A DNA stretch of 64,000 bases from an uncultured Pelagibacteraceae bacterium (lineage in GTDB: Bacteria > Pseudomonadota > Alphaproteobacteria > Pelagibacterales > Pelagibacteraceae), in assembly GCA_902604785.1 (NCBI GenBank), contig CACLAC010000001.1, positions 62,001 to 126,000 of the forward strand. The letters run 5' to 3'. Within the stretch, counting starts at the first letter, position 1. The number at the start of each line of letters is the position of its first letter. The position numbers and the translations under genes were made by a program. Below the pieces are notes generated by a model. It made no database searches. It saw nothing but the letters and a program-made list of their open reading frames with translations, and had not been told where the DNA came from. Of this stretch, positions 11,266 to 55,044 are shown in pieces.

Positions 11266-11673
11266 ATGTCTGAAACTATAGAAGAAAAATGTATTGCAAA
11301 GGGAGTTAAGCTTACTGATCAAAGAAAGATTATTGCTAAAATTATGAGTGAATCTCAAGATCACCCAGACGTTGATGAATTATATAAAAGAGCATCTGCA
11401 GTAGATAAAAAAATTAGTATTGCAACAGTATATAGAACTGTAAAACTATTTGAAGAGTCTGGGATCGTAACCAAGCATGATTTTAAAGGTGGCAAAGCAA
11501 GATATGAAGAATTAAGTGAGAGCCATCATGATCATTTAATTGATATAAAGACAGGAGAAATAATAGAGTTTGTTGATGAAGAAATTGAAAATTTACAAAA
11601 AAAAGTTGCAGATAAATATGGATATAAACTGGTTGACCATAAACTAGAATTGTATGGAATAAAAAAGAAATAA
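11266..11673 (+). CDS. fur: Fur-family transcriptional regulator
   Basis: KLTDQRKIIAKIM, SIATVYRTVKLFEESGIV, HHDHLID. Confidence 0.9.
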   Translation: MSETIEEKCIAKGVKLTDQRKIIAKIMSESQDHPDVDELYKRASAVDKKISIATVYRTVKLFEESGIVTKHDFKGGKARYEELSESHHDHLIDIKTGEIIEFVDEEIENLQKKVADKYGYKLVDHKLELYGIKKK

Positions 11674-14460: not shown

Positions 14461-15986
14461 CTTCATTAATACAAAATAAATTATTAATTTATATTATACC
14501 ATTTATAATCGGTTTATTAACTTCTTATAGTCTTCCACCATATAGTTTATTTTTTATAAATTTAATTACGTTTCCAATATTATTTTTTTTTCTTATACTT
14601 AACTATCAAAAAGGAAAGTGGACATCTTTTAAGATTGGATGGATGTTTGGTTTTGGATATTTTATTTCAAATTTATATTGGATATCAAATTCACTTACCT
14701 TTGAAGAAATTTTTAAACCATTAATACCTTTTTCATTAATTATTATTCCACTGTTTTTGGGATTATTTTATGGGCTTAGCACATTTTTTTGTTCTTTTTT
14801 CAATCTAAAAAAAAAATTTTCATCAATTTTTATATTTTCATTTTTTTTTTCAGTTGTTGAGTATTTAAGAAGCTTTATTTTTGGAGGATTTCCATGGAAC
14901 CTGATTGCTTATAGCTTTACAGATTATTTGCAATTAATTCAAATTCTTTCATTAGTTGGGACTTATGCTTTTAATCTTTTATGTATTACTTTATTTTTAA
15001 CACCTTCTATAATTTTTTTTAAGTATACGAAGAAGAAAAAAATATTTTTTTTAATCTCTTCTATTTTTCTTCTTTCCATAAATTTTTTTTATGGAGATTC
15101 AGTAATTAAAAAATACGAAGAAATTAATAAAACAAATTTAAATTTTATAATAAAAATTATGTCACCAAAAGTAGATATTAAAAGATTTTTTGAAAATGAA
15201 GCACCAGAAAAAACAATTTTAGAATTAATAAAATTAAGTAAACCTAATTATTCAGAAAATACGTTATTTATTTTTCCTGAAGGTGTACTTTCTAATATTT
15301 ATTTGCAAGATTTAAAAAATTTTAGTTTTATAATCTCAGAAAATTTTTCTGACAAACATAAGATAATTTTGGGAATAAGTAGTTTTGAAAATTCAAAAAT
15401 ATTTAATTCGCTGGTAGTTTTGGATAATGACGCAAATATATTAGCAAAATATGATAAAAATAAGCTAGTTCCTTTTGGAGAGTATTTACCTTTTGAAAAC
15501 TTATTAAGAAATTTTGGATTAAAAAAAATTACTCAAGGATATCAATCTTTTTCTTCAAGTAATGAGAGAGATATAATTAAAATTGACAATATAAGTTTTC
15601 TTCCTTTAATTTGTTATGAAGTAATTTATTCAGGAATTATTAATAAAAATAGTGAAGATTTTGATTTTATAATTAATATATCAGAAGATGGATGGTTTGG
15701 AGATTCTGTTGGTCCATATCAGCATTTTTCTCATTCTATATTTAGATCAATAGAAGAGGGAAAAAATTTAATACGTTCGGCAAACAATGGTATTTCGGCA
15801 CATATTGACGCAATAGGAAAAGTAAAAAAAAAAATAAAATCAACTGACAGTGGATTTATAGAGATTAGAAATATTCTAAAAAAAAAAAATACTTTTTTTA
15901 ATACTCATGGCAACAAGATCTTCTTTTATTTTTTAATTTTTTATATTAGTTTGATTTTTTTTTTAAAAAAAAAGGAGAATAAATGA
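14457..15986 (+). CDS. lnt: Apolipoprotein N-acyltransferase
   Basis: TM N-terminus, [13 protein letters not shown], nitrilase core PEGVLS...[13 protein letters not shown]...[11 protein letters not shown] start. Confidence 0.93.
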
Positions 15987-26587: not shown

Positions 26588-26604
26588 TTTAGAATAATAA
26601 TAAA
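26588..26604 (+). promoter_or_regulatory. Candidate Irr/ICE-like operator upstream of irr (fabA-irr intergenic)
   Basis: TTTAGAA-TAA-TAATAAA against TTTAGAA-N3-TTCTAAA: left half perfect, right half 5/7. Confidence 0.45.
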
Positions 26605-26609
26605 ATGCA

Positions 26610-27026
26610 ATGGGTTCTAGCAAAGAATATATAGAAAAACTAAGAAAATCAGGCTTAAGACCAACAAAACAAAGGATAAATATTTGTGAGGCCTTATTTG
26701 ATGCTGAAAAAACTTTTCATTTCACAATTACTGATTTAGTAAAAATTATAGAAACTAAAGCCAATCAAAAAATTTCCTTAGCAACAGTTTACAACACTAT
26801 CCATGCGTTCCAAAAAAAAGGATATCTTAAAGAAATAGCAATTAATTCAAGCCAAGCTTATTTTGATACGAACACAACTGACCATCATCACTTTTTTGAC
26901 GAAAAAAGCAAAGAATTAATTGATTTAAAAGATGAAGATGTTCATCCAATTAAAATAAAAAAAAATATACCAGGAAAAAAAATTAAATCTGTAGAAGTTC
27001 TAGTTAGACTTGATTCTGAAAATTAG
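26610..27026 (+). CDS. irr: Irr-type Fur-family iron/heme response regulator
   Basis: KSGLRPTKQRINICEALF, SLATVYNTIHAFQKKGYLKEI, YFDTNTTDHHHFF; no C-terminal CxxC Zn motif; Irr-like HHH. Confidence 0.85.
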   Translation: MGSSKEYIEKLRKSGLRPTKQRINICEALFDAEKTFHFTITDLVKIIETKANQKISLATVYNTIHAFQKKGYLKEIAINSSQAYFDTNTTDHHHFFDEKSKELIDLKDEDVHPIKIKKNIPGKKIKSVEVLVRLDSEN

Positions 27027-27062: not shown

Positions 27063-27109
27063 ATTAAAACAATTCTAAACTATTGACTACAGTTTAGAAT
27101 CGTTATAAA
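27063..27109 (+). promoter_or_regulatory. katG promoter with two tandem Irr/ICE-like boxes
   Basis: ATTAAAA-CAA-TTCTAAA (27063-27079) and TTTAGAA-TCG-TTATAAA (27093-27109); also a perfect 10-bp inverted repeat ATTCTAAACT(N9)AGTTTAGAAT; TTGACT (27083) and TATAAA (27104) promoter-like hexamers. Confidence 0.6.
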
Positions 27110-27115
27110 TTATAA

Positions 27116-29761
<2,646 letters not shown>

Positions 29762-54949: not shown

Positions 54950-54955
54950 TATAAC

Positions 54956-54972
54956 ATTAGAATTATTCTAAT
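54956..54972 (+). promoter_or_regulatory. Irr/ICE-like palindrome upstream of the TAXI-TRAP operon
   Basis: ATTAGAA-TTA-TTCTAAT perfect 7-bp dyad with 3-nt spacer. Confidence 0.45.
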
Positions 54973-55044
54973 AAACTTCTGGACAATCTAATTAAATTTT
55001 GTTTCAATTATTTATTATAATTAACTAATAGAGAGAGAGGGAAA

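Follow-up and report, generated by a model that had tools for sequence, protein, structure and literature searches.

What controls the catalase-peroxidase gene katG in this uncultured member of the Pelagibacteraceae, and are the palindromes in its promoter operators for the regulator encoded next to it? The window, a 64,000-nucleotide stretch of genomic DNA, carries fabI-fabB-fabA on the minus strand, followed by irr and katG on the plus strand. A sequence-only reading of the window had proposed that two sequences resembling the iron-control element (ICE) overlap the katG promoter and that an Irr-like regulator acts through them. The canonical ICE/Irr palindrome is TTTAGAA-N3-TTCTAAA. The features of the locus are listed below.

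26588..26604, plus strand: ICE-like site TTTAGAATAATAATAAA, two mismatches; it ends 5 bp upstream of the irr ATG
26610..27026, plus strand: irr-like gene, Fur family, 138 aa, with an HHH motif (TTDHHHFF) and no CXXC
27063..27079, plus strand: ICE1, ATTAAAACAATTCTAAA (ATTAAAA-CAA-TTCTAAA), 12/14, just upstream of the -35
27072..27081, plus strand: left arm of the inverted repeat, ATTCTAAACT, the strong inner half of ICE1
27083..27088, plus strand: candidate -35, TTGACT, 3 bp after ICE1
27091..27100, plus strand: right arm of the inverted repeat, AGTTTAGAAT, the strong inner half of ICE2
27093..27109, plus strand: ICE2, TTTAGAATCGTTATAAA (TTTAGAA-TCG-TTATAAA), 13/14, between the -35 and -10 and overlapping the -10
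27104..27111, plus strand: candidate -10 region, TATAAA (15-bp spacer) or TAAATT (17-bp spacer), inside or just past ICE2
27119..29335, plus strand: katG, catalase-peroxidase HPI, 738 aa, exceeding the NCBIfam cut-offs

Much of the earlier description of this promoter was borne out. Both ICE-like sites lie where they had been placed (27063-27079 and 27093-27109), ICE2 does run over the candidate -10, and the 10-bp inverted repeat, ATTCTAAACT-N9-AGTTTAGAAT, is exact (27072-27081, 27091-27100). The half-site score of 13/14 claimed for the pair is right for the second site, while the first reaches 12/14. The gene directly upstream of katG (26610-27026) encodes a Fur-family protein whose best NCBIfam matches are IrrA and Irr, in agreement with the regulator named there. 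No intrinsic terminator was found for irr. The katG ATG follows the candidate -10 by only about 8-10 bases (27104-27119) with no evident ribosome-binding site, and the katG mRNA is possibly near-leaderless.

To estimate the chance expectation, the 92-bp irr-katG intergenic region was dinucleotide-shuffled 20,000 times. A site with no more than one mismatch appeared in 24 of these shuffles, and a tandem pair (at most two and at most one mismatches, 29-33 bp apart) appeared in none. The 10-bp inverted repeat was rejected as stand-alone evidence since 638 of the shuffles (3.2%) contain one; it is explained by the near-perfect half-sites of the tandem ICEs, which face the -35. Across the whole window, the ICE pattern with up to three mismatches was not enriched (46 observed, 48.7 expected), and in counts across genomes, at up to three or up to one mismatches, the reversed control was usually as frequent or commoner. 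It is position and conservation, not motif frequency, that support the case for an operator.

For conservation, the regions downstream of irr were collected from relatives and duplicates were removed, leaving 185 distinct regions, 179 of which have an ICE with at most two mismatches before the next gene. The sites are kept in relatives with irr-katG synteny, where their absence would have told against the sequence-only reading. In 53 of the 54 regions with tandem pairs, the spacing is 30-32 bp, and TTGAC begins 3-5 bp past ICE1 in 53 of the 54 as well. The inner halves of the tandem ICEs are near-perfect (mean mismatches 0.24 and 0.30) and the outer halves weaker (1.56 and 1.37). An information profile was aligned at the second site and reduced to 62 rows sharing less than 80% identity; it gave a mean of 1.23 bits per ICE column compared to 0.18-0.24 in the flanks, with the core values inflated because the rows were chosen for ICE resemblance. 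The most informative column in these rows is the G of TTTAGAA (2.7 bits). The same rows show a palindromic extension, CTA...TA, around the ICE, which was not selected for.

An ICE profile was then built from the sites of 37 relatives, with the window's own sites excluded. In a scan of the genome, ICE2 ranked first (E=1.3e-4) and ICE1 took the third distinct place (E=0.014), although the training set consists of orthologous promoters, so that the rank of the katG site is helped by orthology and is not fully independent. The sites had been open to the objection that such a scan might score them no better than AT-rich background, and the katG site instead came out as the best in the genome. When 49 genomes of the genus were scanned, the top places were overwhelmingly sites downstream and upstream of irr. 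The upstream site was read at 57 loci and is present with at most two mismatches in 40 of them, near -22 from the ATG in most; in the window genome it is weak by itself (E=0.66). From this pattern, irr is probably autoregulated through its upstream ICE-like site. An ICE-like site also occurs at a 1-Cys peroxiredoxin promoter in the window genome (G000:C5:37075-37092; L307, L370), where the gene is divergent from a metallo-beta-lactamase-like gene. Several relatives share this site, and it is absent in most genomes with the gene. Since the sites are found at katG or rubrerythrin, irr and some peroxiredoxin promoters, the detectable targets concern peroxide defence.

Other matches were set aside or simply recorded. 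Two profile matches were not taken as targets: one overlaps the end of a gene for an ABC-transporter ATPase and precedes an XRE-type regulator, the other is within the 3' end of a gpsA-like gene. ICE-like palindromes at 54955-54973 and 15862-15882 were also scored by the profile; one of the two precedes a gene for a probable TRAP/TAXI-type solute-binding protein and the other is in a coding region just before metK. Five consecutive ICE-like palindromes about 31-34 bp apart, the same period as the katG pair, occupy a noncoding AT-rich stretch in one relative (L352:928-1073; G026:C1:76167-76312).

The regulator has a Fur-family domain (PF01475, 75 bits against a cut-off of 23.1), and its closest named relatives are all Pelagibacteraceae, Pelagibacterales or Pelagibacter records, which places the window in a SAR11 genome. 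It scores 134.3 bits with the NCBIfam model for IrrA and 122.1 with that for Irr, the next being PerRB at 60.2. These scores miss the curated equivalog cut-offs of 150 and 170, respectively, and we therefore call the protein Irr-like and not a certified Irr. All 11 of the diverse SAR11 members of the regulator that were compared matched the Irr models. The HXH/HHH heme-binding motif is present, and H92-H93-H94 are invariant in the aligned SAR11 regulators. In B. japonicum, Irr is destroyed oxidatively via heme and its His cluster (PMC4700492). H37, D86, H92, H94 and D105 are also invariant in the SAR11 proteins and align with H37, D85, H91, H93 and D104, the five iron ligands of PerR (PMC4700492). 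The CXXC zinc sites of PerR are absent; the single cysteine of the window regulator is C26. By sequence, the nearest solved structure is 2fe3, a peroxide operon regulator.

The gene behind irr varies among relatives. Based on full-length identities, katG or rubrerythrin lies directly downstream of irr in 130 of the 131 family genomes with a strong irr match, katG in 99 and rubrerythrin in 31. The katG genes in this slot are of two types, 34 of the window type (at least 75% identity) and 65 divergent (53-68%). In the one exception neither scavenger is in reach and the irr match stops at residue 111. No genome in the family sample carries both katG and rubrerythrin (p=4.7e-18, relatedness and incompleteness ignored). 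The genus sample of 399 gave 195 with katG, 123 with rubrerythrin and none with both (p=4e-48, with the same two factors ignored). An irr tree, made from few columns by a quick method, needs at least seven exchanges between katG and rubrerythrin, with the operator retained; its well-supported branches alone force four changes. The rubrerythrin promoters have the same tandem boxes and TTGAC, as in relative L038. What can be read from the genomes themselves is that the sites exist, are conserved and are linked to irr, and that the effector is swapped. The proposal of Irr control of katG, linking heme status to H2O2 defence, is partly supported, in that the sites are conserved operators tied to irr. 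In other relatives the slot contains rubrerythrin, which points to peroxide defence in general and not to the heme enzyme specifically.

We consider it likely that the locus specifies an Irr-family repressor that regulates its own gene and represses a single, exchangeable H2O2 scavenger, with a tandem operator at the scavenger promoter. Boxes that lie at the start site are associated with repression in R. sphaeroides and Bradyrhizobium (PMC3413700). We infer binding by Irr, repression (argued from the position of the sites at the promoter) and the releasing signal. Two Irr-family dimers, separated by about three helical turns, would flank the -35 hexamer, one of them lying over the -10 region, and would block katG transcription. 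The further box upstream would repress irr itself. Inactivation of the regulator by heme loading, oxidation or metal loss would release katG. The SAR11 local circuit would then comprise irr and one H2O2 scavenger, katG or rubrerythrin, sometimes with a peroxiredoxin.

In the textbook model, low iron leads Irr to repress iron-containing proteins. The rubrerythrin mRNA of P. ubique rose 1.57-fold under iron limitation (PMC2864753), a condition in which such an Irr would repress, so the rise runs against simple low-iron repression. The gene measured would be the irr-adjacent one, judging from a single rubrerythrin match per genome. The rise is what would be expected of an iron-loaded repressor, and a PerR-like mode is a real possibility to which we give somewhat less than an even chance. 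The iron-loaded regulator would repress, H2O2 or iron loss would inactivate it via metal-catalysed oxidation, and heme would not be the main signal. Such a mode suits the targets detected (katG or rubrerythrin, some peroxiredoxin promoters and irr), the invariance of the five PerR iron ligands, the closeness to 2fe3 and the linkage of perR to rubrerythrin with H2O2 induction in C. difficile (PMC8546684). However, the Irr models outscore the PerR models by about 74 bits, the CXXC zinc sites are missing, and Irr proteins in general may share these ligands and the HHH motif. The operator also differs, since the ICE-type G is kept in 155 of the 179 sites while the PerR box has T at this position. 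A rise of 1.57-fold is also small, and it may be an indirect effect. Our confidence in the PerR-like mode overlaps with that in the Irr-type reading, as both share the operator.

Natural losses of irr bear on whether the sites belong to this regulator at all. In nine relatives, katG adjoins fabA and no intact irr separates them. Two of these nine irr-less loci have an ICE with two mismatches or fewer, compared to 179 of the 185 with irr (p=3e-8, relatedness ignored); as the nine are spread over four genus groups, they do not count as nine independent losses. A search for irr elsewhere in these nine incomplete genomes found only weak Fur-level matches. One of the nine (L216, upstream of katG in G130) retains a remnant of decayed irr between fabA and katG, and in some irr-less relatives katG now seems to be behind the former irr promoter. 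Loss of the ICE tracks loss of irr. Two points favour the explanation that only a core promoter (-35, spacer and -10) in AT-rich DNA is present and the ICE resemblance is incidental: ICE2 overlaps the -10, and chance alone makes ICE-like sequences frequent in these genomes. The decay of the sites after irr loss, though katG still needs a promoter, makes this explanation very improbable, as does the G of TTTAGAA being the most informative column, at 2.7 bits. ICE1 is likewise at odds with it: this site precedes the -35, matches TTTAGAA-N3-TTCTAAA perfectly (14/14) in relative L056 and survives the loss of ICE2 in relatives L080 and L082. It is just as unlikely that a different regulator binds the sites, either OxyR, which was not found in 59 genomes of the genus (NF008361, E<=1e-20), or the second Fur homologue present in the window (11266-11673, plus strand; best NCBIfam match ferric uptake regulator, 108.9 bits, under the cut-off), since the ICE tracks irr while a weak Fur-type match persists in most irr-less genomes.

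On the Irr-family repressor reading, the irr locus looks like a compact H2O2-defence switch, as the scavenger adjoins irr and paired sites are kept between them. We see nearly an even chance that SAR11 Irr, once a global iron regulator, has become a narrower PerR-like switch dedicated to peroxide, the single slot beside it being refilled repeatedly with either of two divergent katG types or rubrerythrin while the regulator and tandem operator stay in place. SAR11 rank among the most abundant bacteria of the ocean, and peroxide is produced continually where they live. The data offer a regulatory explanation for which genomes carry katG and which rubrerythrin: the two genes occupy a single slot behind irr, share one operator and never occurred together in a genome. 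They also provide a testable case of an Irr protein as a peroxide-defence switch, bearing on heme, iron or H2O2 sensing in streamlined genomes.

Both Irr and the ICE are already known, as is the control of rubrerythrin-like genes by Irr; in Rhizobiales, the rubrerythrin-like blr7895 (mbfA type) is an Irr target (PMC3413700). The literature examined contained no description of Irr acting directly on katG, nor of the gene exchange in the SAR11 slot. A 2006 comparative study of alphaproteobacterial iron regulons may list P. ubique Irr boxes, and we do not claim priority for the rubrerythrin site. The presence of katG in offshore SAR11 genera has been noted without its regulator (PMC12636525). Like SAR11, Rhizobiales (Bradyrhizobium, Rhizobium, Brucella) have a Fur-family Irr-like protein with an HHH motif and an ICE palindrome at the promoter, but their Irr is described as a global iron regulator with many targets, whereas the detectable SAR11 sites concentrate at irr and one neighbouring scavenger. 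The Rhodobacter sphaeroides irr mutant resembles the SAR11 case in that katE catalase expression and H2O2 resistance are raised (PMC3413700). That effect is indirect, as katE has no ICE and showed no gel-shift binding (PMC3413700), in contrast to SAR11 katG with its conserved sites. Gram-positive PerR regulons, such as C. difficile perR-rbr (PMC8546684), also link a Fur-family regulator to rubrerythrin and share the five metal ligands. The SAR11 regulator differs from these in having no CXXC zinc sites, an ICE-type half-site and Irr models as its nearest matches.
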